Source of the DNA: Paludibacteraceae bacterium
Lineage (GTDB): Bacteria > Bacteroidota > Bacteroidia > Bacteroidales > Paludibacteraceae
Direction of reading: 5' to 3'
Length of the DNA stretch: 32,808 nucleotides
Assembly (NCBI GenBank): GCA_024401555.1
Contig: JAKSKV010000035.1
Coordinates: 1-32,808, forward strand
Shown here: positions 8,593 to 30,708 of the stretch, piece by piece
How the letters are laid out: each line of letters starts with the position of its first letter
Numbering within the stretch: the stretch's first letter is position 1
The notes under the pieces: generated by a model
Told to the model about the DNA's origin: nothing
Seen by the model: only the letters and a program-made list of their open reading frames with translations
The model's database searches: none
Program-made: the position numbers and the translations under genes

Positions 8593-9546
8593 CTATATGG
8601 ATTTGATTTCCGTCGGCGTTAATCCGGTGATATTGGCAATAAGATCGATGGATAATCCGTTCTTTTTCATCGCTCGAACTGTTTGATGAATGGCTTCGGT
8701 TTTACCCTTGGCTCTTCCCTCAGCCAATCCTTCAGCCAATCCTTCAGCTCTTCCCTCAGCCAATCCTTTTTCTTTGCCCTCTGCCAGACCTTTCGCCAAG
8801 CCCTCTTCATGACCCTTCGCCATTCCAATCTCAAAGCCATACTCTTTCATGTCGATCTCATCCTCTAATTTCTTCATGCAGGCTTCGTAGAGATCGATTT
8901 CTTCGTCTGAGAGTGCGGCGGACTCCGCTTTCTTCAGCAGCTTTAGCAGTCCTTCGTCTGCTCTTTCATATACTGATGGGCTAATTCTATCCATATTGCC
9001 TAAGTTTTTAAACATTTCCAACCATATATTCTTGGTGTTAATCTCAGCTTCGTCGAATTGGAAGTGTGGCAAAGATAGAAAAAATTTATGAATTCGATCC
9101 CACGATTCAGTCAGGTCATCTCTGTCGTACTCGCTTGTTCTGGTAACTGCTTTGGAGAATTGTCCGTTGGATTCTCCCATGATGAAGATTCCGATGATCG
9201 GGTCGATGTCCTTCTCCCGCTTGTTCCACTTGTCTCCCCGTTTTATCTGCCTTCTCATCAGTTGGTAGGTGTAGTAGGCGGCTCTGGTCTTAAAATACTT
9301 TTGGGCGCTGTTTTGCATTTCAACGAGAACCGTCTCTCCGTTTTCAGTGGTACAGAGAAGATCGAAGCAGACGCCCCGTTCTCCTCGGCTCTCTTTGGGC
9401 ATCTCCACGTTCTCGTATTTAACACTGGTGATTTTGTCGATTTCTCCCTCCAAAATCGCATTTAAAAATGATTTCATGATGACTTCGTCTTGCATGCAAT
9501 GCTTGAATGCGAAGTCACACTTCAGGTCGATGTACTTTTTCATCAT
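8593..9546 (-). CDS. PD-(D/E)XK nuclease-family (Rpn/PDDEXK_2) protein
   Basis: A 317-residue member of the Rpn/PDDEXK_2 family, often annotated as 'nuclease family transposase'; E. coli RpnA relatives are DNA endonucleases that promote recombination. The opening MMKKYIDLKCDFAFKH is characteristic. Catalytic positions are probably D62 in FDLLCTT and E76-M-Q78 in VLVEMQ, the family's usual D...ExQ variant. Residues about 225-270 are a low-complexity GLAEG-type repeat. A longer open frame begins at 9600, but that start lies inside a TATCTTTG promoter box at 9598-9605, so I place the start at the MM pair, 9546. It is convergent with the operon to its left and divergent from the restriction-modification locus. 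Confidence 0.88.
   Translation of the reverse strand: MMKKYIDLKCDFAFKHCMQDEVIMKSFLNAILEGEIDKITSVKYENVEMPKESRGERGVCFDLLCTTENGETVLVEMQNSAQKYFKTRAAYYTYQLMRRQIKRGDKWNKREKDIDPIIGIFIMGESNGQFSKAVTRTSEYDRDDLTESWDRIHKFFLSLPHFQFDEAEINTKNIWLEMFKNLGNMDRISPSVYERADEGLLKLLKKAESAALSDEEIDLYEACMKKLEDEIDMKEYGFEIGMAKGHEEGLAKGLAEGKEKGLAEGRAEGLAEGLAEGRAKGKTEAIHQTVRAMKKNGLSIDLIANITGLTPTEIKSI
8706..8818 (-). repeat. In-gene repeat encoding GLAEG/GRAEG units
   Basis: Short imperfect tandem units (plus strand CAGCCAATCCTT and variants such as CAGCTCTTCCCT) encode xGLAEG, xGRAEG and KEKGLAEG. The unit is close to 12 bases, so copy changes would keep the frame. Such tails are common in Rpn-family and some bacterial transposase-like proteins. 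Confidence 0.75.
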
Positions 9547-9597
9547 TGTTGAAATTTGCAAAATAAAACATTGTAGATAACTTGTTGTAATTTGGGA

Positions 9598-9605
9598 CAA
9601 AGATA
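9598..9605 (-). promoter_or_regulatory. -7 box for the Rpn-family gene
   Basis: Read on the minus strand this is TATCTTTG, an exact TAnnTTTG match 52 bases upstream of the chosen start codon. It supports the shorter start at 9546 over the open frame beginning at 9600. Confidence 0.5.
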
Positions 9606-10142: not shown

Positions 10143-12200
10143 ATGGCGGCAAAAAGTATTGAAGAGAAAATCGAGGACATTGCAAAAAAACAACTCGATA
10201 AATTTGGTGTGCAATACCACATAAAAACCGATAATATAAACACAGAAATAGACCACGCATTACAAAGTGCTGAGTCAAAATCTGGTGGTCAAGGTGGAAA
10301 TTACCCTGATATAAAGTGTTTGATTCAACTTCCAAGTAGTCAGCAGTATGTTCCTGTGATGATAGAAGTGAAGGGAACAAAAGGTGATTTTGAAAAGTTG
10401 GAGAATGGTGAAGTTCATAATCAAGACGATAATGGTAAACCGCTTTACAAACATATAAAGAAATACGCAGTAAATGGAGCCGTGCATTATTCCGAAGCTA
10501 TTGCACGAATTTCTAAATCTTATAGCGAGGTTATTGCTATTGGATTTAATGGCTATGAATCGGGTAGTACTATAAACACAGAGATGGGTGTTTATTTTGT
10601 GAGCAAAGCAAATATGTATTGCCCCAAAAAGATTGATGACTACACCGACTTTTCTTTCCTAAAATCAGAAAACCTATCTGCTCTTGAAACTAAACTAAAA
10701 AACATTCTCCTTTCAGAAGATGAGAAAGAACGTCAGACTCGTGAGTTAGAAGATCGTATCGAAAATACCCTCCAAGAACTTAATCAAGATATGCGTGATA
10801 AAATGCGTGTGTCGGAACCCAAAGACCGTCTTAAACTTGTTTGTGCATTAATTATGGCGGCTCTTGGCGTAGAGGGTAAAGTTCCTCCTCTTGAGATTGA
10901 GGATTTGAAAGGTCTGCAGACAGAGGAAGACCATGATGGAGCAATTATTTTGAGAAAGATTAAAGTGTTCTTGAATGAGAAGCATATCCCACAAGAAAAG
11001 CTCGACAATATATATTCGCTCTACAAAGGAATACTGAATGATGCACTTTATTATAAGTCTAATAATGGTGAAAGTACCATAAAGACAGCCTTTATTTATG
11101 TGAAGGAAGAAATTATGCCAATCTTCACTATGGGTGAGGAAGTGCATATTGACTTTACAGGAAAGCTGCTCAATGTGTTGACTGGCTGGATTACGGAGCG
11201 TGCAAGCGATGATGAAAAGAATGATGTTGTGCTTACTCCACGCTATGTTACAGAACTGATGGCGAGACTTTGTAAGGTAAACAAAGACAGCTATGTTTGG
11301 GACTGGGCGACAGGTAGTGCAGGTTTCCTTGTCTCTGCCATGAAGTTGATGATTGATGATGCTAATAAAACAATACAAAGCGAAGATGCGCGAAAAGCCA
11401 AGATTGCAAAGATTAAAGTGGATCAGCTGCTTGGTATTGAGCTTAGACAAGATATTTATGTGCTTGCCGTGCTTAATATGATTCTGATGAAAGATGGTTC
11501 AAGTCACATCTTGAATAAAGATTCTCTAAAAGAATACAACGGAAAATATGAGCAAGGAATGAACAAAGATGATGAATTCCCTGCCGATGTGTTCCTTCTA
11601 AACCCACCGTATTCAGCGGAAGGTAAAGGTTTTGTCTTTGTAGAAAAGGCTTTGAACAGAATGAACAAAGGTCGTGCGGCTGTGATTATTCAGGAAAATG
11701 CGGGAGGCGGAAAAGGTGATGGCTTTACGAAAAAGATTTTGGAACACAGCACATTGTTGGCTTCTATCCGTATGCCAATAGATTTGTTCATAGGCAAATC
11801 AAGTGTGCAGACTGCAATCTATTTGTTCGAGGTGGGAACTCCGCACGATGTAGAAAGCCTTGTTACGTTCGTTGACTTCAGCAATGACGGATACGCCCGA
11901 CAGAATCGCAAGAAATCAAATTCTAAAGTGAATTTGAAAGATGTTGATTATGTGAAGGATAGATATGCCGAGTTGGTTGATATAGTGCTTAATCGCAAGA
12001 CAAAGACGAGTTATTATACAGAAGCGAACGGACTTGTAGTGAAAGACTCCATTTCACTTGAAGGCAACGACTGGACATTTAACCAGCACCGTAAGATTGA
12101 CACAATGCCAACCGAGGCAGATTTCCGTAAGACTGTTTCGGACTATTTGAGTTGGAAACTTTCGACTATCATCAAGGAGGACTCTGCAAATTTTCAGTAA
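10143..12200 (+). CDS. BcgI-like fused endonuclease-N6-adenine methyltransferase
   Basis: A 685-residue restriction-modification protein. An N-terminal PD-(D/E)XK nuclease motif is visible (P55-D56 ... E75-V76-K77-G78). The HsdM-like methyltransferase follows, with SAM-binding motif I DWATGSAGF from D387 and catalytic motif IV NPPY at 487-490, typical of N6-adenine methylation. Fusing nuclease and methylase while leaving specificity to a partner is the BcgI (type IIB/IIG) arrangement and explains why no hsdR is present. The start ATG follows the ~425-base leader. The gene is AT-richer than pyrB or recA, suggesting horizontal acquisition. The last codons overlap the specificity frame and contain a possible slippery site (12188-12194). 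Annotation as plain HsdM would miss the nuclease motif. Confidence 0.85.
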   Translation: MAAKSIEEKIEDIAKKQLDKFGVQYHIKTDNINTEIDHALQSAESKSGGQGGNYPDIKCLIQLPSSQQYVPVMIEVKGTKGDFEKLENGEVHNQDDNGKPLYKHIKKYAVNGAVHYSEAIARISKSYSEVIAIGFNGYESGSTINTEMGVYFVSKANMYCPKKIDDYTDFSFLKSENLSALETKLKNILLSEDEKERQTRELEDRIENTLQELNQDMRDKMRVSEPKDRLKLVCALIMAALGVEGKVPPLEIEDLKGLQTEEDHDGAIILRKIKVFLNEKHIPQEKLDNIYSLYKGILNDALYYKSNNGESTIKTAFIYVKEEIMPIFTMGEEVHIDFTGKLLNVLTGWITERASDDEKNDVVLTPRYVTELMARLCKVNKDSYVWDWATGSAGFLVSAMKLMIDDANKTIQSEDARKAKIAKIKVDQLLGIELRQDIYVLAVLNMILMKDGSSHILNKDSLKEYNGKYEQGMNKDDEFPADVFLLNPPYSAEGKGFVFVEKALNRMNKGRAAVIIQENAGGGKGDGFTKKILEHSTLLASIRMPIDLFIGKSSVQTAIYLFEVGTPHDVESLVTFVDFSNDGYARQNRKKSNSKVNLKDVDYVKDRYAELVDIVLNRKTKTSYYTEANGLVVKDSISLEGNDWTFNQHRKIDTMPTEADFRKTVSDYLSWKLSTIIKEDSANFQ

Positions 12201-13393
12201 GCCCTCGTTTGAAGAACCTCAAAGATGATTTTGAGGCAGACGGGGGTGTTTGGAAAGAGTGGAGAATTGGGGATTTGTTTTTGTTGAAATCTAATCCTCA
12301 GTTAGACAAAGATAATTTTGTCTTTTCTGAGAATGCCAAGTATCCTTATTTTACAAGGACAGTTTTTAACAATGGAATATTTGGTGACGTAGAATTCTTT
12401 GATAATGAACATTTAATAAAAGGAAATAGTATCGCTGTCGGAATGATGGGAATGCAGTTCTTTTATATGCGTAATGATTTTTACGCAGGACAATTTACAA
12501 AAACTGTATATCCTAAATTCTTTGGATTTAATGAAAATATAGCTTTATATTTTATATCGTTGTTAAATAGATTCCAAAAAAAGTATTTAGGAGTCTTAGT
12601 TAGAAATTTTGAGGATGCTTTTTACAATACACATGTAACTCTTCCTACATTCAATAACGAGCCATCCTATTCCTACATGGAACAATACATCACCTTGTTA
12701 GAAGAAGAAAAGATGCTTCAAGTGGATAAGTTCCTTAAAGATTCGGGATTGAATGACACCGCACTTACCGCCGAAGAAATAGCCGCATTAGAAAAATTTA
12801 GAAACGGGGAGGTTAAGTTTGAGGAGAGGAAGATTGGGGATTTGTTTACATTAAAAGCAATCAAACAAGCAAAATCCCAATCATTGATACCAGAAGATTC
12901 TAATGGCGTACCCTATATCGTTCAGTCAACAAAAAATAACATGTATAAAATGCATGTTAATGAAAAATGGTTGATTGATAACAATGAATCACCTGTTGAA
13001 GGGAATGCGATAGTCCTAGGTGTTACATTGCCTGCAGTTTCGTATCAGCCTTATAAATTCGGTGCAAGTCAGGTAATTGTAGCTCGAGCAAATTTTCTAC
13101 AGGAATCAATAGGATTGTTTATTGTACCTATGTTGAAGAGACTCATGACACAATTTTCTTATTCGAAGAAACCAGGTATGAAAATCTATAATGATATGGT
13201 TTTGTCATTTCCTGTTGATACATCTGGCTCCATCGACTACTCCTTTATGCAACACTTTATATCGGCACAAGAGAAGTTGGTGGTGAAAGGTGTGGTTAAG
13301 TATAAGGATGAAATGTTTAATGCCAAAGGAAAAACATATATGGTTGGTTTTGATAGTTCCGATATGGCGGCAGAAGTGATAAATACTGATTGA
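12152..13393 (+). CDS. Restriction-modification specificity (S) subunit
   Basis: Recognises the target DNA for the upstream nuclease-methylase. Two target-recognition halves are visible: each begins with a matching motif (EWRIGDLFLLK and ERKIGDLFTLK) and ends with YSYMEQYI or YSFMQHFI, joined by a helical segment around LTAEEIAALEKF. This matches BcgI B-type and HsdS subunits. The start is unclear: the frame has no ATG or GTG before the conserved domain. Candidates are TTG at 12152 (inside the methylase gene) or TTG at 12209. The frame is -1 relative to the methylase, and reading through the A-AAT-TTT heptamer would fuse the proteins. The length of ~400 residues suits an S subunit. Confidence 0.82.
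   Translation: METFDYHQGGLCKFSVSPRLKNLKDDFEADGGVWKEWRIGDLFLLKSNPQLDKDNFVFSENAKYPYFTRTVFNNGIFGDVEFFDNEHLIKGNSIAVGMMGMQFFYMRNDFYAGQFTKTVYPKFFGFNENIALYFISLLNRFQKKYLGVLVRNFEDAFYNTHVTLPTFNNEPSYSYMEQYITLLEEEKMLQVDKFLKDSGLNDTALTAEEIAALEKFRNGEVKFEERKIGDLFTLKAIKQAKSQSLIPEDSNGVPYIVQSTKNNMYKMHVNEKWLIDNNESPVEGNAIVLGVTLPAVSYQPYKFGASQVIVARANFLQESIGLFIVPMLKRLMTQFSYSKKPGMKIYNDMVLSFPVDTSGSIDYSFMQHFISAQEKLVVKGVVKYKDEMFNAKGKTYMVGFDSSDMAAEVINTD
12174..12247 (+). promoter_or_regulatory. Candidate programmed -1 ribosomal frameshift site
   Basis: Four elements are in order. SD-like AAGGAGG is at 12174-12180. After seven bases comes the X-XXY-YYZ heptamer A-AAT-TTT at 12188-12194, in the methylase zero frame and one codon before its TAA (12198-12200). 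After a 6-7 base spacer comes a stem: 12201-12207 pairs with 12241-12247, with G-U pairs. Inside it, CCTCAAA 12217-12223 pairs perfectly with 12230-12236 around a six-base loop. A -1 slip gives ...SANF then SVSPRLKNLK..., entering the S-subunit frame. Functional frameshifting is inference. Confidence 0.5.
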
Positions 13394-15193: not shown

Positions 15194-18100
15194 ATGAAAC
15201 TGCAAATGAATTTGAAACAAAGTATTAGAAAAGAATTTTATTATATGGTGAAACATTTACTACGGGTGAACTACACCTGTTTGGCAATGCTTTTGTCTTT
15301 GTTGTTGATCGGTCACCAATCCGTTTGGGCGGATGGTTCCAAAGATATGTATCCAAGTGACTATTATGCCCGTTATGGGGTCACTTCCGGCTCTGCTGGA
15401 GATTACCGCGCCTGCTTGCTCAGCGGTATCACCTCGTCGGGATCGGATCCCGATGTGGCGGCTCCATTTCCCACATTCGGAACAATAAAGGTCTATGCCA
15501 AGGCGGGTGAACACATCTATGTGGCATCAAGTGCCATGAAGGTGAAAAATGCTTTGACGAGGGAGTCGTACGGTAGAATCGACTGGCGTGCGCCAAACGG
15601 TAAGAGCGGAAGCGTGACCAATGTGCGTAGAGGTGGCTTGATCGCCAACCGCGCCCAAGAGTTGGCTGGTCCGAACATCAATGGTTCCACCAGAGGGTAT
15701 AACGCCTACCAAATCACGGTGGCTGCCGATCAGGAGGGTGTGTGGGAGATCGACTTCATCGGTGCGACCACCAAATTGGATTTCTCCTCCGAGACCACTT
15801 CGAACCATCGGATCGAATCGTGGACGGAGGATCAAAACCTGCCGTATATCAACGCATTTGACGTTTCCGTCTCCAATAAGGAAGATAATGCGTTTATTCC
15901 CGGCCGTGTCTATGCGAATGTCTTGAATCTTTTGATGCCATCCGCTTATGGAGGCACCAACTATAACTGCGAATGGTACACTACCCTGTATGTCTTGACC
16001 AATACCGGTTATTTGTACGAGGTGAAACCCAATGGCCAGAACGGACACTTCTCTACCTTCTTCGCCAACAACAAGGGTGTGCAAATCAATCCGGAAGGAT
16101 GGGTGACCGATAACTCGGACTTCTCTGCTTCCAAGGCTTTGGGATGCTACGGCGGTTTGCCCGCTTATGCGAGCCTTACCAGTGAATTGACTGGTAATCA
16201 GTTTAAAAATCAAAGGGTTCCGACTTTTGATCCTCGTCGTCCTGATAGGAGATCCACCCGTGTGATCGACGGAGAGGAGAGGGTGACGGATGACATCACC
16301 CATAAAATATTCTTTACCAAACCAGCCTCCGATCTTCCTGCCAGCGCACGGGCTGTCTATGGCAAGCAGGTGGTGGAGACATGGCTTTTGTCCGATCTGA
16401 ATGCAAAGGATACGCCGACTTTGACCAATTTGAACATTGTCGGTAAGGAGAGCAACAAGAAGGGAATCATGGGCCCTGAGGGTGTCAATCTCTTCTTCGA
16501 GGCCAATGCGGCGGGCGACTACCTCTTGGAGATGACTTTTGGCGAGGGATACACCAACAGAACATTCGCCGGTGTCTGCCAAAAGGGAGAGAATGTGATC
16601 GAGTGGGATGGCAAGGACGGTGCTGGCAGAATGGTGCCGGTGGTCGATATTGTCTTGGCAGGAAAGTTGAAGACCGCGGAGATCCACTTTCCGTTCTTCG
16701 ATTTGGAAAATAATAAAAAGGGATTGATCCTTAATCAATTGTCGGCAGATTGGTCGGCAGTCGAGCGTGATACGATCTACTGGGATGATTCTAAACTGGG
16801 TGTCGCCAAAGGTGCGGCTGAGGATGCCTTGGATATGACCAAGGGAACGAAATCCCCAGGACATATTTGGTTGAATAGGCAATCCGACCGCGGTAACAAC
16901 CGTATCATCGATACTTGGACCTATGCGCAAGGTGCGAGTGGCGAGACGCAAAGTCTCTCCGCCCTCTCCCTATACATTGATTTGTCGGTCAATTCCGTTA
17001 ATTGCGATGCGACTTCCACCCATGTGGGAGAAGAGATTTCCTATACGATGGAGATTGAGAACCGTGCGGTGGGTGAATACACTTTCAAGGGAGAATCCGT
17101 CCAAGTTAGTGCGGATGCCGATAGCGCCTCGTTTGGCGTTTGGTTCGCCGATGGAGGTTTTCATATGACGCAAGTGGAACTGGTAAGTTCGGATGATCCG
17201 ACTTGTGCGGTGAAACGGCAACCTTCGGGTGACGAATTCGGCATGGGTTACATCTCTTTGAAGAATGGCAAACGCGCAACTGTCCGTGTGAAGGGCTATG
17301 TGGATGCGAAAATGGCCCACCAAAAGGTGCAACCATTGGGCTTTGTGATGCGCCCGGGTGATTTCTTCGAGATCGACGCCAACAACCTCGCTTCCGATGG
17401 AATGCCTTTGGATCCCGCTGCCGAGTATGAGGGTATGAGCCATAATAACTTGGTGGAGGTCGCTACTCCGCTCTTTGTCTTGAACAGCGCTCCTGAACCA
17501 GGATCGGACGATGCGTTGGTGGCTGCTGGCCAAACGATAGAGGGCAATCTTTTGTCCAACGATATGGATCCGGATCAAGACGCGATGACCATAATAGGTT
17601 GTAGTTTGAATGGAACACCGCTGTCGTTGGGTGTCGCGAATGATATCTACCAAGCCTCCGTTTTGTGCGGATCTTTGTTGGTGAAGGGTGACGGATCCTA
17701 CGCCTTTACCGCCCATGGCGATTACAGTGGCCAGGTGCCTGATATCGACTACGAGGTGAGCGATCAGTTCGCGGAAAGCGGTGCCATTGCGACAACGGAT
17801 TTGACTCCTGGCGTGAGCGCCTCCTCTCTTGCTATTCAGGTCTTGCCAAACCATAGTCCGACGGTGTCACCTACTGAAGTCTTGATCCATAGGACGGGTG
17901 AAGAGACACTTTTGCCGATCGTTATCAACGATGAGGATGGTGACGAATTGACCGTTACCCTAGAAGGGGAAGATAAGGCACTGTTCGAAGTGCGCGGCGA
18001 TAGCCTCTATTATGTGGGTGCTGCCGTGAGCGGTCTCACCGTTTATCAGGTGACCGTGGTGGTGGCTGATGGCGTAAAGACACCTGTGTCTGTCCCAGTG

Positions 18101-21100
18101 AAGGTGAGTGTGAGCGAAAATCAGGTTCCTACTTTGACGCCTACAAATATCAACATACGTGCGAAGAGGAGAACTGCCTCCAGCTATTTATTGCCTATTA
18201 GGATTTCAGATCCGGACGGTGATAAAATCACCAGTGTCGTGCTATCCGGAAGTTCTGAATTCAGTGAGGTGGATGGCTACATCTACTTCAATGCGACCAC
18301 CACGAATACCAATGCATTGGGTGACCATAACTACACGATCTATGTCACCTTGACGGACGAACTGGGAGCCTCTTCCTCCGCCATCCGCGTGAATGTGACG
18401 GTAAGCGTGGTCTCTGCTGATATCTCACCGAGTGGCGCTTATGCCGTGGCAGACGATATCTATTATGGAGAGCCTCTTTTGAACGCCTTTACCCGAGGTG
18501 CGGAAGTGGAGGGCGAGTGGTTGATGAAGCGTAGCTCTTCCGTCTATTACGAGGACGACGCGATTCTTCCTGTCGGCTCTTATACCTTCGATTTGTTGTT
18601 CAATCCTTCGCAAGGCAATTACCGTGCGGAAGAGGTGCGTGAGGTCTCTTTCAATGTCTTGCCGAGGGCAATCACCTTGCAGTCGGAGTCTGCTTCGAAG
18701 ATCTACGACGGAACAGCGTTGTCCGCCCCAACTGTGAACCTGGTGGAGGGCAGCTTGGTGGGCGATGACCATTTCCTTTATTCCAATTTCGCCTCGCTGA
18801 CCAAGACGGGAAGCAAGGAGAATACCTTTGACGTCACGCCGGCCGCCGGTATGGCCGTCTCCAATTATGAGGTGACCAAGAAATATGGTACACTGATGGT
18901 GGAGAAGCGTGTGATTCAGGATTACGAAATCACTTTGGACGCCAACAGTTTCAAGTATGATGGTACACTGAAACAGCCGACCGTTACGTTGACAAAGGAT
19001 GGAGAAACATTGGACGAGTCGCTTTATACGGTCTCGTATAAATACAATAAGGATGCTTCTGATACCGCTTTGGTGATTATCTCTGGGGTGGAGAATGAAA
19101 ATGTCGAGTTGCGGAGTGATTCCGCTCGCTTCTCGATCACCAAGAGAAGGGTTGTTTTCGAATCGGGCAGTTGCGAGAAGGAGTACGATGGGGAACCTTT
19201 AGTCTGCAAGCAAATTAAATCCATCAGTGGCGATGGCGTGGCGGATGGGGATACCTATACGGTGAACTATACTGCGTCGATTACCGAAGTGGGAAGCGCC
19301 AAGAATACGATCAGTGTCCAATTCGAGGGTAATAACTATGTGGTATTCCTTTCCTATGGAACATTGACCGTGACGCCTAAAAGCGTGACGTTGACCGATG
19401 AGAACATTGTCTGGAGCGATAACTCCTTTGTTTATGACAAGACGGCGCATTGTCCGACTGCGACTATCACGGTGGATGGCGTAACGCTCGTTCCTGACGT
19501 GGATTATACCATTTCTTGCGAGAATAATGTGAAGGTGGGTGACGCTACGGTGACAGTGACCGCCCTTACGGGTGGAAATTGCCATTTCACGGCGTATGAG
19601 ACCACTTTGCCGATTACCCCAGCCACAATCCGTGTGACGGAGAAGCGCGTGGCCGCAAAGGAGTATGATGCTCTTTTGAATGCGGTGGTGGCGGTGGATG
19701 ACTTTGAGGGTCTCTATGGTGGCGACCAAGTTGGAGTGGCTGCGACTGGCGTCTTTGCGGATGCGAATGCCGGAGAACACAAGCAAGTTACCATTTCCTA
19801 CGAATTGACGGGTGACGATAAGGCAAACTACCAATTGACGCCTGCCTCCGAAATGTTTGACGAGGGTGTCATTACGGCCAAGGAGGTTTCCCTTGTATGG
19901 GATGAGCCAATCGAATTCACCTACGATGGCACACCGAAGCATGTGAGTGCGTCCGTGGTCGGAACAGTGGGCGACGAGTCTGTGCATGTGATCTCCTATA
20001 CGGGCGACCAGAATGTGGTTGCGGTCGGACACTACACGACAACTGCTGCCACATTGGATAGCGATAATTATCGTTTGCCTTCGGATGCGACGGTGGCATG
20101 GGAGATCAAGAAGATTACAGAAAAGCCGAATATTACCCTCTCAGGAGCTCCGTTCGTTTATGATGGAACAGCCCATCAGCCAAGCGTGACGGTCAAGGTG
20201 GGTGAGACGGTGGTGGATGCCTCCGACTATGCGGTGGAATACAAGAACAACGTGAATGCGGGCGATACCGCCATGGTGATTGTCTCCGCTTTGGCGGGTG
20301 ATGAGCATGTCTATTCATTTGATCAGGATACGGTTTACTTCTCTATTTCGAAGAGAGCCGTCGCTTATACTTCTCCTTCCGCTTCCAAAGAGTTCGATGG
20401 AACGCCATTGACAGAGGCCTCTTGTTCTCCTGATGACGCCTCGTCGGTCTTGGCGGGTGATGAGCCTACCATTACTTATACAGGTAGTCAGACCAACGTG
20501 GGTGTTAGTCCGAATACTTTTGAGGTCGTTTTCGAGCCAGACAATTATGAGGTGACTTACCATTATGGCACATTGACTGTGACACCAAAGGATATCGTTT
20601 TGGCGGAGACCGATGTGGTCTGGGACGAGACCGAGTTCATCTATGATGGTCAAGAACATTGCCCAACCTCCACCATTACAGTGGGTGGATTGGTGCTACG
20701 CCCGGATGAGGATTATGCGATATTCTGTACCAACAATGTGAATGTGGGAACTGATATGGCCCACATCGCGATTCGTTCCGCATCGGGAGGTAACTTCGAG
20801 TTTACTGACTACGAGGTGAACTTCTCCATTTTGCCTCGCAAGATCAGTGTCAAAGACTCGTTTGTGGAGTCCAAGGTTTATGATGGCACGACATCCGCCT
20901 CGGTTGTGGTGACGGCCATAGATAATGCGGTGGCCGGTGACGATATCGCTATTGAGGCCTCCGCTGAGTTTGAAAATGAACAAGCTGGAGCGTCTAAAAC
21001 GGTCGCTATCCAATATAGCCTATCTGGTGATGCGAAAGCCAACTATGAGTTATTATACGATGCGGCTACCTATACGGCAGGAGAAATTACGCCAAGAGGT

Positions 21101-24100
21101 GTGACGCTTGTTTGGAGCGAGGCTTCATTGCCGTTTAACGGAAATACACAAAGTGTTGAGGCGACGGTCGTTACCGATTTGGAAGGTGCCGTTGTACATG
21201 TAGTTGACTACAAGGACAATTCCGCTGCGGCGGTCGGAACCTATACGGCGAAGGCCTTGACCTTAGACAATACGAACTTCCAGTTGCCTGAGAACGACTC
21301 TTTGGTATGGCAAATTACCGAAATCGAGATCCACCCAACCTGGTATGCGGTTGACGGAATCTATGGTACGGTGGTGTTGGGTGACAATCCGAAGGTGACC
21401 TTGGATCAACCATTGGCGGGTACTCTCCTTTACAAAGTGGATGGGGTCTCTTTCGCGGAGGGCGATCTTTTGCCTGCAGGCTCCCACGTGGTGAGCGCAC
21501 TCTTCCGTGTGGAGGCTGGGTTTGATATCGATTGTGGCAGTCGGACAATTACGGTGAAGAAGATGACGCAGGAAAAACCTGTCATCACGCCTATTGCGGA
21601 GAGTCTTGCGGGTATGAACGACGGTAAGATGATCGGCTTGATGGTCGGCATGGAGGTGCGTGGCGAATCGGGAGATTTCTTCGCTGTAGAGGATGCCGAT
21701 CAACTGTTCGCTCCTGGTACCTACGCTGTCAGATGGGCGGGCGATGACTACAAGGAGGCATCGGAATCCGCCATCGTGGTGATCCTTCCTGGCATTGCGG
21801 AGTTCCAGGTGTCGCTCTCTTCCGTTGATGAGCAGATGGGAACAGTGATTGGCGCTGGCAGTTATGCCCACCATAGCGAGGTGACCATAGAGGCTACGGC
21901 GATGGAGGGATACCATTTCGATGCTTGGAACGGTACAATTACCGCGAACCCATACACTTTCGTCTTGGAACAAGACACCACATTTGTGGCCAGCTTCTCT
22001 TCGAATAGTTATACATTGACGTTGAAGAGCGATGGCGCAGTCTTGAAAAGCATGGAGGTGCATTATGGCGAAGTAGTCACCTTGGCGCAATTGGATACGA
22101 CGCCGACCAAGAACGGATATGAATTTGCGGGTTGGAATCAGACATTCCCTCTCACCATTGGCGCAGAAGATGTCGTGGTTGAGGCGAAGTGGAACAAAAA
22201 AACGTACCTCTTGACGCTTGAAGCGGAGCATGGTGCGATTGCCGGTGAGTTTACCAATCCGGTGCCATATATGAATGTTGTGGTGATTACCGCTGTTCCA
22301 GATGAGGGCTACCATTTCGTCATGTGGAAGGATGGTCAAACGGAGGAGGAGCGAGTGGTGAGAATTGTCTGTGATACGACGATGATCGCACTGTTTGAAC
22401 CAAATCAATATCAATTGTCTTTGATGGATGACGATATGCTTTTGAAGACAATGTCTGTTACTTTCGGTGAGGAGGTCACTGCAAGCGTCTTGGATTATGT
22501 CCCAGAAAAGGAGGGATATGATTTTGAGGGATGGTTGCCTGAACTTCCTATGGTGATGGGTGCTGCGGACACCGAGTTGCAGGCACAATGGAGCAAGAAG
22601 AACTACCATGTCACTGTGAAGACCGAGCATGCGACGGTGGATGAATTCACCTCTCCGGTTCCATTCGAATCCTCTTTGGAGTTGAATGTGCGACCAGCGG
22701 ATGGCTATCATTTTGCCTCGTGGAGTGATGGGTCTTTGGAGAATCCTCGCCATATAGTTGTTGTGAAGGATACCGTGTTGGAGGCTATGGTGGCGCCTAA
22801 TGAATACACCTTGTCGCTCATGGATGAGGATAGGGTTTTGAAGAATTTGGTGGTTGCTTATGGCGAATCGGTGACCGATGTCTTGGTTGACTACGTTCCT
22901 GAGAAAACGGGCTATCAATTTGTTGGATGGACCCCTCGATTACCGATGGTGATGGGGGCTGCCGATGACACATTGGTGGCTGAGTGGGGTAAACGATTGT
23001 TCCAAATCACGCTTGATACGATAGGTGCACCAGGTAGGGTAGAGACTGATTTTGAGAACCCGATTCCTTTCGAGACAGTCATCTCTATGACCGCTGTTCC
23101 GAATGTTGGCTATCATTTTGTCGCATGGAGCGATGGGGAGACACAAGCCGACCGTAAGATGGTTGTGGTGAAGAATGATACGCTGGCGCCTCGTTTCGGA
23201 CGGAATGAGGTGGAGGTGTTGGTGGTCAATTTGGATGAGGTGGTGAAACGCATCCCTGTACTATATGGCGACAGCGTTACGGAGTCCATGATCGGCCTCT
23301 CTTTGGAGCGTGAAGGATATGATTTCGTGGGGTGGCAACCTGCCTTGCCTCTTGTGGCAGGTGCGGAGAATGTGACGGTTGAGGCGGTATGGTCATTGAA
23401 GAAGATAGAGCTGACCATTCCTACCGTTGAACATGGTGCTATCTCCTCCGACTTCCAAAATCCAGTCTCTTATGGTGATACAATCAGCTTGACGGCTGTT
23501 CCAGATGAGGGCTACCATTTCGTATTCTGGGGAGACGGTGAAGAGTCCAATCCACGAAAGATAGTGGTCGTGGATGATACAGTGCCTACTCCGATCTTTG
23601 AGAGAAACCAATATGATTTGTATCTCTTGGCGGATGGCGATACTTTGGATGTGATCCCTATGATGTATGGTGATACCCTTACCGAAAATATGGTGGGTGT
23701 GACGCCGACCAAGAGGGGATACGAATTCGTGGGCTGGTTGCCTGAATTGCCGCTTGTTATCGGAGCGGAAGATCTCTCTATCGAGGCGCAGTGGCGTATA
23801 AAGACCTTTGAGATCACAATGGATAGTATCTTTGAACATGGAAAGATAACATTCGAATATGACGAACCGATTGAGTATGGCGACACGATCACCATTACCG
23901 CCGTTCCGAATGAGGGATATCACTTCCAGTCGTGGTCGGACGGCCGCCGCGGTAATCCGCGTGAGGTGGTGGTCAAGAGCGACACCTTCTTCATTCCTCT
24001 ATTCGCTTTGAACTCCTACACCTTGATGGTCATGAACGAGGCGGATACCATGAGGATTTATAACTTCCTCTATGGCGATACTGTCCGTCATGAGATTCTG

Positions 24101-25171
24101 GATCGTTTGATGCCAACCAAGGTGGGGCACGATTTCATCGGTTGGGATGTGCAATTGCCGCTCTTTATGCCTGCGCATGACACGGTGATTCGAGCACAGT
24201 ACATTCCGAAGATCTATACCGTCATCACGAAAATCAATGGTAATGTGGGTAAGGTGATCGGCGAGGGAGACTATGACTACGGCACGACTGCGGAGTTGAC
24301 CGCAGTGCCTAACCGAGGCTACCACTTCGTCTCTTGGGGCGATGGAGATACCACCACTTCTATCCGATTCACCGTCTCTTGCGACACCATCGTTTCCGCG
24401 TTGTTCGCCAAGGATGTCGATGAGATGATGGTCGATACATTGTTGATTCCTGCTTTGGGATATTGTCCAGGCACGGAGGATGTGATGCGTTATACCTTGT
24501 TGACTTCCGAAGCACCGACGGAGTACCGAATCATTTATGATGATGAGGCTAAGGCTGCTGGATTTGAGGATATTGATTTCTCTCCGATTATGGCGGATAA
24601 TGAGGTCCGTGTGGTTATCCCAGATTGTCCTGCCCATATCTATAAAGCGAAGGTTCAGTTCCGCAACGCTTATGGTTCGTTGACTCCGATCTTCGATGTG
24701 GATGTGAGGGTGAATTTGTCAAGCGATTTCATCATCGACATTTGGTCGGATGTGGTATCGGCCGTCAATTTAGAGAGCCGATTTGTGGAGTACCAATGGT
24801 TCCATAATGATGTGAAGGTGGGTGGTGCCAATATGCCTTACTACTGCGAAAAGCAGGGATTGACCGGCAACTATTACATGGAGGTGGTCACCACGGAGGG
24901 AGAACATCTACGCACTTGTAAGAAGTGGTTCAACAACGCCGCCAACACGACACTCTCTGTCTATCCTAATCCAACCGAAGGTATCGCTACCGTGGAGTTG
25001 AGTGTGGATAATGGTAATACGCATAATCTGAAGGTGACCAATTCGCAAGGTGTTACGGTCTATACCACCACCTTCTCTGGAAGAAAGATTCAAGTTGATT
25101 TCGGTAGATTCGTCTCTGGCACATATATCGTGGATGTGGATGGATTGACCGTGAAGGAGATAAGAAGATAA
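15194..25171 (+). CDS. Giant modular T9SS-secreted surface protein
   Basis: A 3325-residue exported protein. The signal peptide runs from about M18 (ATG at 15245, a likely alternative start) to A46 in SVWA-DG. Order of parts: a unique N-terminal region to ~760; cadherin-like or Big-type modules (~763-1075, with DMDPDQDAM, DEDGDELTV and DPDGDKIT Asp-rich loops); about 11 MBG/YDG-type modules (~1160-2040); 7 divergent InlB-type repeats (GYHFxxW) alternating with 6 Listeria-Bacteroides repeats (GYxFxGW) at ~2206-3075; an Ig-like region; and a T9SS type A sorting domain (~3252-3325, LSVYPNPTEG ... GTYIVDV). No enzymatic motif is visible. It looks like an adhesin or surface stalk. Nine bases separate it from the OmpA-like gene downstream. 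Confidence 0.93.
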   Translation: MKLQMNLKQSIRKEFYYMVKHLLRVNYTCLAMLLSLLLIGHQSVWADGSKDMYPSDYYARYGVTSGSAGDYRACLLSGITSSGSDPDVAAPFPTFGTIKVYAKAGEHIYVASSAMKVKNALTRESYGRIDWRAPNGKSGSVTNVRRGGLIANRAQELAGPNINGSTRGYNAYQITVAADQEGVWEIDFIGATTKLDFSSETTSNHRIESWTEDQNLPYINAFDVSVSNKEDNAFIPGRVYANVLNLLMPSAYGGTNYNCEWYTTLYVLTNTGYLYEVKPNGQNGHFSTFFANNKGVQINPEGWVTDNSDFSASKALGCYGGLPAYASLTSELTGNQFKNQRVPTFDPRRPDRRSTRVIDGEERVTDDITHKIFFTKPASDLPASARAVYGKQVVETWLLSDLNAKDTPTLTNLNIVGKESNKKGIMGPEGVNLFFEANAAGDYLLEMTFGEGYTNRTFAGVCQKGENVIEWDGKDGAGRMVPVVDIVLAGKLKTAEIHFPFFDLENNKKGLILNQLSADWSAVERDTIYWDDSKLGVAKGAAEDALDMTKGTKSPGHIWLNRQSDRGNNRIIDTWTYAQGASGETQSLSALSLYIDLSVNSVNCDATSTHVGEEISYTMEIENRAVGEYTFKGESVQVSADADSASFGVWFADGGFHMTQVELVSSDDPTCAVKRQPSGDEFGMGYISLKNGKRATVRVKGYVDAKMAHQKVQPLGFVMRPGDFFEIDANNLASDGMPLDPAAEYEGMSHNNLVEVATPLFVLNSAPEPGSDDALVAAGQTIEGNLLSNDMDPDQDAMTIIGCSLNGTPLSLGVANDIYQASVLCGSLLVKGDGSYAFTAHGDYSGQVPDIDYEVSDQFAESGAIATTDLTPGVSASSLAIQVLPNHSPTVSPTEVLIHRTGEETLLPIVINDEDGDELTVTLEGEDKALFEVRGDSLYYVGAAVSGLTVYQVTVVVADGVKTPVSVPVKVSVSENQVPTLTPTNINIRAKRRTASSYLLPIRISDPDGDKITSVVLSGSSEFSEVDGYIYFNATTTNTNALGDHNYTIYVTLTDELGASSSAIRVNVTVSVVSADISPSGAYAVADDIYYGEPLLNAFTRGAEVEGEWLMKRSSSVYYEDDAILPVGSYTFDLLFNPSQGNYRAEEVREVSFNVLPRAITLQSESASKIYDGTALSAPTVNLVEGSLVGDDHFLYSNFASLTKTGSKENTFDVTPAAGMAVSNYEVTKKYGTLMVEKRVIQDYEITLDANSFKYDGTLKQPTVTLTKDGETLDESLYTVSYKYNKDASDTALVIISGVENENVELRSDSARFSITKRRVVFESGSCEKEYDGEPLVCKQIKSISGDGVADGDTYTVNYTASITEVGSAKNTISVQFEGNNYVVFLSYGTLTVTPKSVTLTDENIVWSDNSFVYDKTAHCPTATITVDGVTLVPDVDYTISCENNVKVGDATVTVTALTGGNCHFTAYETTLPITPATIRVTEKRVAAKEYDALLNAVVAVDDFEGLYGGDQVGVAATGVFADANAGEHKQVTISYELTGDDKANYQLTPASEMFDEGVITAKEVSLVWDEPIEFTYDGTPKHVSASVVGTVGDESVHVISYTGDQNVVAVGHYTTTAATLDSDNYRLPSDATVAWEIKKITEKPNITLSGAPFVYDGTAHQPSVTVKVGETVVDASDYAVEYKNNVNAGDTAMVIVSALAGDEHVYSFDQDTVYFSISKRAVAYTSPSASKEFDGTPLTEASCSPDDASSVLAGDEPTITYTGSQTNVGVSPNTFEVVFEPDNYEVTYHYGTLTVTPKDIVLAETDVVWDETEFIYDGQEHCPTSTITVGGLVLRPDEDYAIFCTNNVNVGTDMAHIAIRSASGGNFEFTDYEVNFSILPRKISVKDSFVESKVYDGTTSASVVVTAIDNAVAGDDIAIEASAEFENEQAGASKTVAIQYSLSGDAKANYELLYDAATYTAGEITPRGVTLVWSEASLPFNGNTQSVEATVVTDLEGAVVHVVDYKDNSAAAVGTYTAKALTLDNTNFQLPENDSLVWQITEIEIHPTWYAVDGIYGTVVLGDNPKVTLDQPLAGTLLYKVDGVSFAEGDLLPAGSHVVSALFRVEAGFDIDCGSRTITVKKMTQEKPVITPIAESLAGMNDGKMIGLMVGMEVRGESGDFFAVEDADQLFAPGTYAVRWAGDDYKEASESAIVVILPGIAEFQVSLSSVDEQMGTVIGAGSYAHHSEVTIEATAMEGYHFDAWNGTITANPYTFVLEQDTTFVASFSSNSYTLTLKSDGAVLKSMEVHYGEVVTLAQLDTTPTKNGYEFAGWNQTFPLTIGAEDVVVEAKWNKKTYLLTLEAEHGAIAGEFTNPVPYMNVVVITAVPDEGYHFVMWKDGQTEEERVVRIVCDTTMIALFEPNQYQLSLMDDDMLLKTMSVTFGEEVTASVLDYVPEKEGYDFEGWLPELPMVMGAADTELQAQWSKKNYHVTVKTEHATVDEFTSPVPFESSLELNVRPADGYHFASWSDGSLENPRHIVVVKDTVLEAMVAPNEYTLSLMDEDRVLKNLVVAYGESVTDVLVDYVPEKTGYQFVGWTPRLPMVMGAADDTLVAEWGKRLFQITLDTIGAPGRVETDFENPIPFETVISMTAVPNVGYHFVAWSDGETQADRKMVVVKNDTLAPRFGRNEVEVLVVNLDEVVKRIPVLYGDSVTESMIGLSLEREGYDFVGWQPALPLVAGAENVTVEAVWSLKKIELTIPTVEHGAISSDFQNPVSYGDTISLTAVPDEGYHFVFWGDGEESNPRKIVVVDDTVPTPIFERNQYDLYLLADGDTLDVIPMMYGDTLTENMVGVTPTKRGYEFVGWLPELPLVIGAEDLSIEAQWRIKTFEITMDSIFEHGKITFEYDEPIEYGDTITITAVPNEGYHFQSWSDGRRGNPREVVVKSDTFFIPLFALNSYTLMVMNEADTMRIYNFLYGDTVRHEILDRLMPTKVGHDFIGWDVQLPLFMPAHDTVIRAQYIPKIYTVITKINGNVGKVIGEGDYDYGTTAELTAVPNRGYHFVSWGDGDTTTSIRFTVSCDTIVSALFAKDVDEMMVDTLLIPALGYCPGTEDVMRYTLLTSEAPTEYRIIYDDEAKAAGFEDIDFSPIMADNEVRVVIPDCPAHIYKAKVQFRNAYGSLTPIFDVDVRVNLSSDFIIDIWSDVVSAVNLESRFVEYQWFHNDVKVGGANMPYYCEKQGLTGNYYMEVVTTEGEHLRTCKKWFNNAANTTLSVYPNPTEGIATVELSVDNGNTHNLKVTNSQGVTVYTTTFSGRKIQVDFGRFVSGTYIVDVDGLTVKEIRR
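18670..21315 (+). repeat. About 11 MBG/YDG-type modules
   Basis: Modules of about 80 residues, each opened by a YDG-like motif: KIYDGTAL, FKYDGTLK, KEYDGEPL, FVYDKTAH, KEYDALLN, FTYDGTPK, FVYDGTAH, KEFDGTPL, FIYDGQEH, KVYDGTTS, LPFNGNTQ. Two flavours (K-x-YDG and F-x-YDG) interleave, suggesting growth by duplication of multi-module blocks. They are diverged in sequence, so recent DNA-level duplication is not evident. Confidence 0.8.
21810..24420 (+). repeat. Alternating InlB-type and Listeria-Bacteroides repeats
   Basis: Seven copies carrying GYHF followed by two residues and Trp (GYHFDAW, GYHFVMW, GYHFASW, GYHFVAW, GYHFVFW, GYHFQSW, GYHFVSW) alternate with six copies carrying GY/GH-x-F-x-GW (GYEFAGW, GYDFEGW, GYQFVGW, GYDFVGW, GYEFVGW, GHDFIGW). 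The two-module period is roughly 130 residues. These match the divergent InlB B-repeat and Flg_new/Listeria-Bacteroides repeat families seen in long surface stalks. Confidence 0.85.
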
Positions 25172-27663: not shown

Positions 27664-30600
27664 ATGGGTGAGGAAAATAGAAATGAAGTCGATCTTCTGA
27701 AAGATCAGTGCAAAATAGAGAATCAATGCCTTTATATTCCAGAAGGCACGAAAATTATTCCTGAAAAGTGTTTTCACGGCGACCAAAGTTTCCAAACCAT
27801 CCATTTCCCCGATTCGTTGGAGGAGATAAAAATGTATGCCTTCGATGGTTGTGATGAATTGAGACGTGTCGTTTTGCCGCCCTCTTTGAAAAAAATGGGG
27901 CAAGATGCCTTCTGCGATTGTGAGCGTCTTGAGAGCGTTCAGTTGTCGGATGGATTGGAAGAGATACGCTATCACACGTTTAGTGGTTGCCGTTGTCTGA
28001 AAAAGGTGGTTTTCGGCAATGGATTGAAGAAGATCGGAGAGGAGGCTTTTCGTGGTTGTGTAGCCTTAAATGACATTGTATTACCTAATCAATTGAAAGA
28101 GATAGGGGAGCGGTGTTTCGCTGGTTGTGAATCGCTCACCAAGATCAATATTGGTAATGAGTTAGACTTGGTGTCGGGTGAAGCCTTCGCTGAATGTTCC
28201 AAACTGGCGGAGGTTGAGGCGGATGGTTTGCAGTATGCTCCCTTCCAGATGGATGTGTTCAAGGATACTCTTCTCCTGAATAAGAAACGGGAAAACAATG
28301 AAATGCTGATTATTGGCCATACGGTGGTGGATGGCAGATTTTGTAGCGGAGAGGTGACTATCCCTGACGGCATTTGGCAAATCGGCCCCGGTGCCTTTTT
28401 GGATTGTGCGGGAATGAGACGGATCCATATTCCATCGTCCGTAAAGGCGATTGATTATAAAGCTTTCCAGGGTTGTGTTCTGTTGGATGAGGTGAAGTTG
28501 CCACCTGAGTTGGCGTCTCTTTCCGAAAATGTTTTCAGGGATTGCTATTCGTTGAGACAGCTGGAATTGCCCGCAAAATTCGGGAAGGTTTGGGAAGGTG
28601 CGTTCGATGAAACCCCTTGGTTGGAAGCGCAACGACAGGAGGGTCGGCCGATTATCATTGGTGATACTTTTTATGATGGAAAAAGCTGTAAAGGCTCTGT
28701 TTGTGTGGAGGGTGTCTCCTCTATTGCGGGCGGTGCCTTCAAGGAGAATCATGATTTGACAACGGTGACGGTAGGTGAGAGTGTGAAATCCATTGGCGCT
28801 TCCGCTTTTGAACGATGTCTTAATTTGAAGAGCGTCTCTTTGCCCTCTCATTTGGATGAGATAGGTGCGCGATGTTTTTCCCACTGCTACTCTTTGGAAC
28901 GGTTGGAAATACCCGAAGGTGTGGAAGATATAGGTCAGGAGATGTTTTTCGCCTGTGGATCGTTGCGTGAGCTTAAATTGCCTTCGACCATCAAAAATGT
29001 TTATTTTAAAGCCTTTTACTGTTGCCCTCGATTGAAGAGACCGTCTTTCTCCGACGATGTCTATATCGCCTATCATGCCATTTATTGCATGGAGGATGAG
29101 TATTCCTCCTTGCCTACACAGGAGACGGCACGAACCGTCTTGATGGATGAGTTGATCAATAGGGAGGAACCTCCTACTTGGGAGATGTTGGAATGCCGAG
29201 GGGTTGCTGTCGCGAATAAGGCCTATTGTGGTAGAGCGGATTTGACGGAGATCGTTATTCCTGAAGGGGTGAGAATCATCGGAGAAGAAGCATTTAGAGA
29301 CTGCTCTAATCTTAAAAAAGTGGTGCTGCCGGATAGCGTTGAAATTATTGGTAAAAACGCGTTTGCCTCTACGGACATTGAAGAGTTGACCTTCCCGAAA
29401 AATTTGAAGTATATACTTCGTTCGGCATTTGCGGGATGTCGCTTGAAACGGGCGGATTTGCCTGATGGCTTGCAATATATTGGCGACTACGCTTTCAAGA
29501 GATCCGATTTGACGCAAGTGTATGTTCCAACTTCTGTGACAGATTTGGGGTATGGCGCATTCAGCGAATGCGAACGTTTGGCAACCGTGAGAATGATGTG
29601 CTCCGCCAAAGAAGAGTGGGGGTATTTCAGTGGATGCCATCGGTTGATTTCCTTTGTGAGTGCTGGTATGACGATCAATCCTCGTGATTTTGAGGGGACC
29701 GCTTTGTTGCGTCAGCCTTGCGATGAGGTGGGTGATTTCCTGATACGCTCAGGTTGTGTGTGTGAGGTGAAAAAGAAAACTTTGCCATCCGTGGTGGAGA
29801 TCCCAGAGGGCGTCTTCTCTATTGGCGTGGAGGTCTTCAAAGGACATGAAGAAATCAAGGAGGTGCGTTTGCCGGACTCTTTGTGCGCGATAGGTAGAGG
29901 TGCTTTTTGTGGTTGTACCCAATTGGAGAAGATCAATATGCCTGAAAATTTGCGGGAGATAGGTGCCGAAGCCTTCTCGAAGTGCGGGTTTAAGCGGTTT
30001 GACTGGCCAGCGAGTGTCACCACCATGCATCGTCACATCTTCCTCTCCTGCCATTCCCTACAAGAGATTACTTTGCCGGATACTTTGCGCGTCATAGAAT
30101 CGGAACCTTTTGGGGAAACTGCTCTCCACGACATTGTATTGCCTAAGAGTGTTGTTAAGTTTGGCAGATTAAAGGGGTTCCATGGTGAGGCATATCGCAA
30201 AGGTGAGACACTTACGATCCTCAATGATCAATATGATTGGCGGTTGGAAGATGATGAGGTTGCGGCGGTTGCGTGTCCAAACGATTTGCCCGATTATATT
30301 TTGTGGCGAGGCGATGTTTCTCAGTTCCCTGACATCCATGATCAATTCAAATTGTTGCAGGGATATGCGAGGGGATTGGAACTCGGATTCGAATATGGTG
30401 AGGCGTGCGATGCGAGAAATGCTCGTTTGATTAAGGATTTCCATCAAGATTATTCGTCGCTCTATCGCGGTTTCTCCAACACCTGCCTTGTGTTTCTGAC
30501 GATTCTAAATATGATCCTTCACATTGTCTTCTATCCCTATATTTGGATAAAAGAGATGGGACATATGTTCAGTACAGTGCATGAGCCATCCTATTTCTTT

Positions 30601-30708
30601 GATGCCATCATCAAAAGATGGCGCAAACGTCTAGATCGTCCACATCGGTTTATGGAGGTTGCTTCTGATGCGATGCTCCGCTACTTGGCAAAAGAAATGG
30701 CTGACTAA
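27664..30708 (+). CDS. BspA-type leucine-rich-repeat protein without signal peptide
   Basis: A 1014-residue protein built mostly of ~23-residue BspA/TpLRR (LRR_5) repeats with the pattern I-x-x-x-A-F-x-x-C-x-x-L-x-x-V-x-L-P, from about residue 20 to 880. The repeats are interrupted near 215-240, 315-345 and 470-500 by non-repeat segments. Most repeats have a Cys in the AF-x-x-C position. Unusually there is no signal peptide and no T9SS tail, unlike surface BspA proteins. One hydrophobic segment at about 942-961 (LVFLTILNMILHIVFYPYIW) is a probable membrane helix, followed by a basic helical tail. The long repeat array is therefore probably cytoplasmic, perhaps tethered to the inner membrane. 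Function unknown. Confidence 0.85.
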   Translation: MGEENRNEVDLLKDQCKIENQCLYIPEGTKIIPEKCFHGDQSFQTIHFPDSLEEIKMYAFDGCDELRRVVLPPSLKKMGQDAFCDCERLESVQLSDGLEEIRYHTFSGCRCLKKVVFGNGLKKIGEEAFRGCVALNDIVLPNQLKEIGERCFAGCESLTKINIGNELDLVSGEAFAECSKLAEVEADGLQYAPFQMDVFKDTLLLNKKRENNEMLIIGHTVVDGRFCSGEVTIPDGIWQIGPGAFLDCAGMRRIHIPSSVKAIDYKAFQGCVLLDEVKLPPELASLSENVFRDCYSLRQLELPAKFGKVWEGAFDETPWLEAQRQEGRPIIIGDTFYDGKSCKGSVCVEGVSSIAGGAFKENHDLTTVTVGESVKSIGASAFERCLNLKSVSLPSHLDEIGARCFSHCYSLERLEIPEGVEDIGQEMFFACGSLRELKLPSTIKNVYFKAFYCCPRLKRPSFSDDVYIAYHAIYCMEDEYSSLPTQETARTVLMDELINREEPPTWEMLECRGVAVANKAYCGRADLTEIVIPEGVRIIGEEAFRDCSNLKKVVLPDSVEIIGKNAFASTDIEELTFPKNLKYILRSAFAGCRLKRADLPDGLQYIGDYAFKRSDLTQVYVPTSVTDLGYGAFSECERLATVRMMCSAKEEWGYFSGCHRLISFVSAGMTINPRDFEGTALLRQPCDEVGDFLIRSGCVCEVKKKTLPSVVEIPEGVFSIGVEVFKGHEEIKEVRLPDSLCAIGRGAFCGCTQLEKINMPENLREIGAEAFSKCGFKRFDWPASVTTMHRHIFLSCHSLQEITLPDTLRVIESEPFGETALHDIVLPKSVVKFGRLKGFHGEAYRKGETLTILNDQYDWRLEDDEVAAVACPNDLPDYILWRGDVSQFPDIHDQFKLLQGYARGLELGFEYGEACDARNARLIKDFHQDYSSLYRGFSNTCLVFLTILNMILHIVFYPYIWIKEMGHMFSTVHEPSYFFDAIIKRWRKRLDRPHRFMEVASDAMLRYLAKEMAD

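Follow-up and report, generated by a model that had tools for sequence, protein, structure and literature searches.

Comparative evidence for a programmed -1 frameshift that would fuse a BcgI-like restriction-modification protein to its specificity subunit

In dnaX of the E. coli DNA polymerase III, a Shine-Dalgarno (SD)-like element, a slippery heptamer and a downstream hairpin accompany the synthesis of two products with a common N terminus, in a ratio suiting assembly. BcgI and the Type IIB/IIG restriction enzymes with a separate specificity (S) subunit combine a restriction-modification (RM) fusion with an S that has two target-recognition domains (TRDs), and PMC3874165 and PMC4081073 give BcgI a stoichiometry of 2RM:1S. 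In the single-chain Type IIB enzymes AloI, CjeI and TstI, RM and S share one chain, a 1RM:2TRD composition whose working is called a mystery in PMC3874165. Here we describe a BcgI-like RM gene and its S gene in a contig of a Paludibacteraceae bacterium (JAKSKV010000035.1, assembly GCA_024401555.1; the whole stretch of 32,808 nt is referred to as the window). Their junction has the same three elements as dnaX and would likewise give two products with a common N terminus; the dnaX shift shortens its protein, whereas the RM shift would add a whole second part. Reviews treat the BcgI-type S as a separate subunit, whereas the S of the window is expected mainly as an RM-S fusion. Such a fusion has RM and S on one chain like the single-chain enzymes, as do 12 of the 58 homologous junctions described below, but frameshifting would add extra free RM.

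The RM protein of the window matches the PADLOC model REase_MTase_IIG (E 5.5e-178, residues 2-680) and an N6_Mtase domain. It carries a PD...EVK sequence from residue 55, in the N-terminal part, and NPPY at residue 487, which we take to be the nuclease and N6-adenine methyltransferase motifs; the two activities on one chain are characteristic of BcgI-like Type IIB/IIG enzymes. The S frame, open from 12131 to 13393, matches PADLOC Specificity_II, and its two Methylase_S stretches correspond to two target-recognition domains. A sequence-only reading had proposed a programmed -1 frameshift here, and its description of the junction was confirmed. The S frame is indeed -1 to the RM frame and overlaps it, with no ATG or GTG ahead of the conserved S start and TTG codons only (at 12152 and 12209), and the slippery heptamer and the SD-like element are where they had been placed (Table 1). 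The stem proved longer than described, the pairing of 12201-12207 with 12241-12247 being the outer 7 bp of an 11-bp stem that encloses the 7-bp hairpin already noted. The order is thus AAGGAGG, 7 nt, A_AAT_TTT, CAG, TAA and the stem directly after. The minimum free energy of the stem is -28.6 kcal/mol (z -4.9), and none of 200 dinucleotide shuffles was equally stable. These are the elements expected of a -1 frameshift signal, namely a zero-frame X_XXY_YYZ before a zero-frame stop and a suitably spaced structure under selection; the internal SD stimulator, an optional element, is present in the window and is not universal among homologues.

Table 1. Features of the RM-S junction and its genes in the window.
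Feature	Position	Strand	Remarks
RM subunit, nuclease-methylase	10143..12200	+	ATG start, 685 aa, 77 kDa; BcgI-like
SD-like element AAGGAGG	12174..12180	+	7 nt 5' of heptamer
Slippery heptamer A_AAT_TTT, RM frame	12188..12194	+	one codon (CAG) ahead of RM stop
S part, -1 frame	12194..13393	+	399 codons past the predicted slip; two Methylase_S stretches
RM stop codon TAA	12198..12200	+	one codon past heptamer
Downstream stem-loop	12201..12247	+	outer 11-bp stem 12201-12211/12237-12247; inner 7-bp hairpin 12217-12223/12230-12236
TTG, sole rival start near conserved S start	12209..12211	+	within 5' stem arm; Leu codon of SPRL

We propose that ribosomes translating RM would reach A_AAT_TTT with AAGGAGG able to pair with 16S rRNA and with the stem-loop ahead. 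A fraction would slip back by one base and continue into S, giving a predicted RM-S fusion of 1083 aa (123 kDa), while the remainder would terminate one codon later and release the 77-kDa RM. Free RM and RM-S could then assemble into a BcgI-type 2RM:1S enzyme, so that the slip frequency would set the ratio. We consider it very probable that -1 frameshifting at A_AAT_TTT yields RM-S beside free RM in this way; slippage in vivo, its rate, the assembly and the role in the ratio are inferred.

Homologues were collected from the genome contigs (8 loci), related genomes, plasmids, phage records, E. coli and Campylobacterota, many of the sources being metagenome assemblies; the records fetched were 6 of 117 for plasmids, 2 of 62 for phages and 5 of 29 for E. 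coli. Matches were found in 29 of 5426 E. coli genomes (22 over at least 80% of the query) and, at E 1e-60, in 48 of 249 genomes of Campylobacterota, which we take to be the phylum of the Sulfurovum genome carrying locus L006. A phylum-wide sample gave one match in 395, the window's own genome, and the class of a gill-symbiont genome likewise gave only that genome among 229; viral contigs scanned with RM peptides gave no match. We kept 93 of 122 loci (those whose RM match passed residue 600 with more than 150 bits, and in addition L016 and L020) and removed 35 near-copies (junction identity above 80%), leaving 58 non-redundant junctions in which the window (L011) is represented by L003. L005, in which the junction and S are present and most of RM is missing, was excluded by its score, yet used in some junction comparisons.

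S lies at -1 in 36 of these 58 junctions and at +1 in 2; a further 12 are in-frame RM-S fusions, 3 have an ATG-initiated S, 3 are without a readable S (L063, at a contig end; L075, with an IS1; L085, lost) and 2 are distant ATG-type relatives (L016, L020). One homologue is a second, divergent copy in the window's own genome (G000:C92; L002/L062), with an RM 56% identical to that of the window, the same layout and the heptamer G_GGA_AAA; its S frame contains no ATG, GTG or TTG to about 150 nt past the RM stop. Since the layout recurs in unrelated genomes, complete E. coli chromosomes included, the one-base sequencing error that would have undone the original proposal is excluded. It is also very unlikely that S is a dead or phase-off frame split from RM by an indel. 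Decay does occur in the family: L005 has lost most of its RM, and among the fusions there is a stop within S (L097), a stop inside RM (L101) and an RM in two pieces (L107). Some S genes contain poly-G tracts, RefSeq annotates one E. coli S as a pseudogene without an N terminus, and two H. pylori systems were judged inactive, most likely for want of a start codon (PMC3936762). The -1 relation is nevertheless held in 36 diverse junctions, and in the stretch that starts 30 nt ahead of the stop and ends 6 nt behind it the longest one-base run is 3-7. A relative, HpyUM032XIII, is moreover active both in its genome and as cloned RM+S1+S2 (PMC4450513; the junction letters were not compared).

Of 39 loci (the 36 of the -1 class and the 3 without S), 35 have an in-frame heptamer among the last 8 RM codons and 36 among the last 14. 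Elsewhere in RM, X_XXY_YYZ occurs at 277 of 25,242 codons (1.1% per codon, 8.45% per 8-codon stretch), giving a binomial tail of 1.6e-33 for 35/39, uncorrected for shared ancestry. The 36 slip sites are GGGAAAG (15), GGGAAAA (13), AAATTTT (3), CCCAAAG (3) and AAAAAAG (2), and the presence of five heptamer types at one place points to selection on function rather than on a shared peptide. A_AAT_TTT is found also in L003, L004, L005 and L012 and, in another lineage, in L076 and L082; the dnaX heptamer A_AAA_AAG occurs in four E. coli RM loci (L071-L073, L075). Together C_CCA_AAG, G_GGA_AAG and A_AAA_AAG, ranked most efficient in E. coli when stimulators are present (PMC4066793), make up 20 of the 36 sites. 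The run of seven A in L071 and in the E. coli relatives L072, L073 and L075 could suggest that transcriptional slippage, not ribosomal frameshifting, makes the fusion. For 35 of 36 loci, runs close to the junction reach 3-6 at most, whereas PMC3711429 cites A runs above 7 and T runs above 8, and we regard this explanation as highly improbable. In 21 of 37 loci the slip site is preceded, at 3-20 nt, by an SD-like motif; for background windows the figure is 269 of 4180 (6.4%). The idea that strong heptamers dispense with the SD (present with 14 of 16 heptamers not ending in AAG and 6 of 20 ending in AAG; Fisher p 0.0008) was set aside as not significant, the tree offering 3-5 independent pairs; it remains a lead.

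The downstream stems are also under selection. When the synonymous codons of S were re-drawn, the stem had z < -2 in 31 of 38 loci (mean -3.2), compared with 5.4% of 685 control windows taken from other parts of these S genes, and z was above 0 in the three ATG-type loci. The seven exceptions are L061, L083, L087, L092 and L103, where the stem lies across the RM stop or ahead of it, together with the +1 loci L080 and L104. Two stem classes were picked by eye: class A (19 sequences) and class B (12, near-copies included, the window among them). Class A aligns without gaps over the heptamer, spacer, 11-bp stem and 15-nt loop; 98.1% of its stem cells are paired (37-51% in slid controls), and neither the number of cells with two-sided changes (11) nor the covariation score was reached in any of 500 shuffles. 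In class B 89.5% are paired, two-sided changes affect 6 of 17 pairs (as many in 8 of 500 shuffles), and the covariation score was again reached by none of 500. A third arrangement, with the stem across the RM stop and weaker fold scores, is seen in L083, L084, L087, L089, L091, L092 and L103; on refolding eight loci from the slip site against dinucleotide shuffles, z was below -2 for L061, L084, L087 and L103 and between -1.5 and -1.9 for L083, L089, L091 and L092. A class A covariance model, run with strict filters and 22 candidates scored per genome, gave 11 hits in the 249 Campylobacterota genomes, all at this RM family (10 RM genes and 1 remnant; 8 of the 11 loci were already in the model, and one new hit lies beside a decayed RM remnant). 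Over the fused, ATG and +1 loci it gave 7 weak hits (E 1.2-5.6), none judged real. A degenerate signal pattern had 3 matches in 2.9 million viral contigs, all with the E. coli prophage junction. The predicted signal is found again in related enzymes from widely differing bacteria, where its changes compensate one another.

Ordinary starts for S are scarce. In 19 of 38 loci, the second copy L062 included, ATG, GTG and TTG are all absent from the S frame as far as +48; in the others, except L065, L102 and L116, the candidates lie within the stem/loop region or far upstream in RM. These observations bear on translational coupling, by which ribosomes finishing RM would reinitiate at TTG 12209 or another start and give free S. 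A TTG does stand at +11 in the window, L004, L005, L012 and L056 and at +14 in L003, and coupled ATG starts are known in Lactobacillaceae homologues. The TTG of the window, however, sits in the 5' stem arm and encodes the Leu of a conserved SPRL, a residue encoded by TTA in L076 and L082 and replaced by Ser in L007 and L062; the SPR upstream of this Leu can also be read in relatives and in two in-frame fusions, L107 and L113. Coupling would account neither for the 19 loci without a start nor for the heptamers and stems, and we consider it improbable. Homologues with an ATG-started S and no heptamer would have been another way for the proposal to fail. An ATG-started S does exist in 3 of the 58 junctions, all on Lactobacillaceae plasmids (no heptamer was seen by eye within the 50 nt inspected), and in the two distant relatives.

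Several points weigh against the frameshift. Three of 38 loci (L065, L102, L116) have an ATG or GTG that overlaps the RM stop, and five others (L013, L057, L090, L095 and L096) have an ATG at +14 or +20; ordinary initiation is possible in all eight, and both kinds of start could serve coupling. L105 and L119 have the same signal type as L102 and L116 without the overlapping GTG. Full heptamers are lacking in the homologue L056, which has G_GAT_TTT, and in L103; these two and L085 are the loci with none within the last 14 RM codons. The anti-SD of Bacteroidota is said to be masked, which would weaken a role for the SD in this host. Although the cells in class A show covariation, the number of its pairs with two-sided changes (3) was reached by 138 of 500 shuffles, and with a cut-off of E 10 the class A model still missed both the window and L002. 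The loci share ancestry and are not independent, so all P values given here are nominal. The heptamer of the window, AAATTTT, and GGGAAAA (13 of 36 sites) are absent from the 18 motifs selected in PMC4066793, where the selection was for shifting above 0.10% without stimulators plus under-representation. Finally, a separately started S methylated DNA with its RM in Hpy99XXII (PMC3936762), so that fusion is not always needed, and this active S can also be read in favour of coupling. On the other side, the comparison supports -1 frameshifting through the -1 arrangement, the heptamer, the SD-like element, the constrained stem, the want of usable starts in half of the loci and fusions with similar linkers. 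Of what an alignment of homologues had been expected to reveal, the heptamer, the stem and silent-site constraint were found, and the SD in the 21 of 37 loci only. We thus regard -1 frameshifting, as judged from sequence comparison, as strongly supported.

The natural fusions are consistent with the predicted product. Between RM and S the linker measures 30-41 residues in 29 of the 34 predicted -1 products; both +1 products have 32, and 10 of the 12 in-frame fusions have 32-42. The linker pattern failed on the remainder. On a quick RM tree, in which 22 of 59 inner branches are weak, the supported branches require a minimum of 7 changes for in-frame fusion. L107 and L113 are in-frame fusions that retain a class B stem and G_GGA_AAC, with a -1 stop two codons further along. 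They approach the dnaX layout and are suggestive of a reversed signal, in which a slip would yield free RM. A wider version, that all in-frame fusions hide such a reversed signal, was rejected: the stem was found in only 3 of 13 (L077, L107, L113; best of 23 offsets), and 9 of 13 have a heptamer close to the fused junction, which in a stretch so wide does not clearly exceed chance.

Close relatives also differ at the junction. The RM DNA of E. coli loci L064 and L072 is 98% identical up to 47 nt before the stop, the junction and first part of S differ, and 98% agreement then resumes; one has GGGAAAG with a class A stem and the other AAAAAAG with a different stem. L078, an in-frame fusion, and L080, a +1 locus, share 97.7% of RM up to the junction. 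From these swaps, the signal seems to travel with the recognition cassette. The gene prfB (RF2) has a +1 frameshift site with an upstream SD. In L080, L104 and L109 there is likewise a close SD-like AAGGA, CTT-TAG-C, an S at +1 and no start codon, the prfB-type arrangement; they differ in that prfB is a release-factor gene and that these three loci (two non-redundant) use UAG. The +1 loci show no stem excess (z +0.6 in L080, +0.3 in L104). An engineered EcoKI M-S fusion follows the same logic of M plus M-S, being active in vivo and requiring added M in vitro (PMC3510504), but it is man-made, and in natural EcoKI a coupled start of its own serves S. A mixture of RM and RM-S would agree both with the 2RM:1S of BcgI and with the need of EcoKI M-S for M. 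We lean, with a good deal of reserve, towards recoding as an assembly rule. The working enzyme would be an RM/RM-S heterodimer. Signals that can replace one another (a -1 site with any of five heptamers and two or more stem classes, a prfB-like +1 site or a reversed dnaX-like one) would keep its parts in ratio and move with the target-recognition cassette, so that specificity switching by recombination would bring its own frameshift signal.

Literature searches found no report of programmed frameshifting that makes the specificity chain of a restriction enzyme, and the sequence-only reading knew of no case in this enzyme class. A term search of PMC3711429, PMC4066793 and PMC10885494 and of the searched part of PMC5009743 gave no restriction-modification example among their frameshift cases. 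PMC10885494 names methyltransferases among phage genes known to contain a frameshift, and in PMC3850674 a -1 site was considered in a C-REase fusion and its product was not seen. What would be new here is a frameshift-made specificity chain of a restriction enzyme; the parts of the signal and the 2RM:1S BcgI are known.

Other features of the relatives and of the window may be recorded. Poly-G tracts of 8-17 occur in the S region of L076, L079, L082, L084, L087, L089, L091, L092, L102, L106, L108, L114-L117 and L121, 578-821 nt past the RM stop, with a second tract at 1197-1312 nt in three loci. They likely confer phase-variable recognition. The H. pylori systems have similar G tracts, and several of these loci would be akin to them. 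The E. coli version is carried by prophages in L064 and L074, on the downstream side of the antiterminator Q; in L074 tRNA-Ile and two tRNA-Arg follow it. L049, a Lactobacillus gasseri plasmid, has two pairs of N-6 DNA methylase plus S in tandem, and in L136, a contig of the viral collection, the open frame ahead of the RM match reads as tandem ATSDQRP repeats. In the window, a PD-(D/E)XK family transposase (PF12784) lies upstream of the RM operon (8593-9600, minus strand). Further on are a 3325-aa protein (15194-25171) with InlB B-repeat-like, List-Bact, YDG and Ig-like domains and a Por secretion C-terminal tail, and a BspA-type leucine-rich repeat protein (27664-30708).

If -1 frameshifting does operate at these junctions, S genes whose annotation calls them truncated or without a start may in fact work. 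The H. pylori systems called inactive for want of an S start codon, HP1471/HP1472 and JHP1364/JHP1365, could be explained in this way; with an added ribosome site, a start codon and a corrected S frame, DNA was methylated by JHP1364/JHP1365 and not by HP1471/HP1472 (PMC3936762). The puzzle of one catalytic unit with two recognition domains in single-chain Type IIB enzymes, as posed in PMC3874165, would also become testable with natural enzymes predicted to make both chains.

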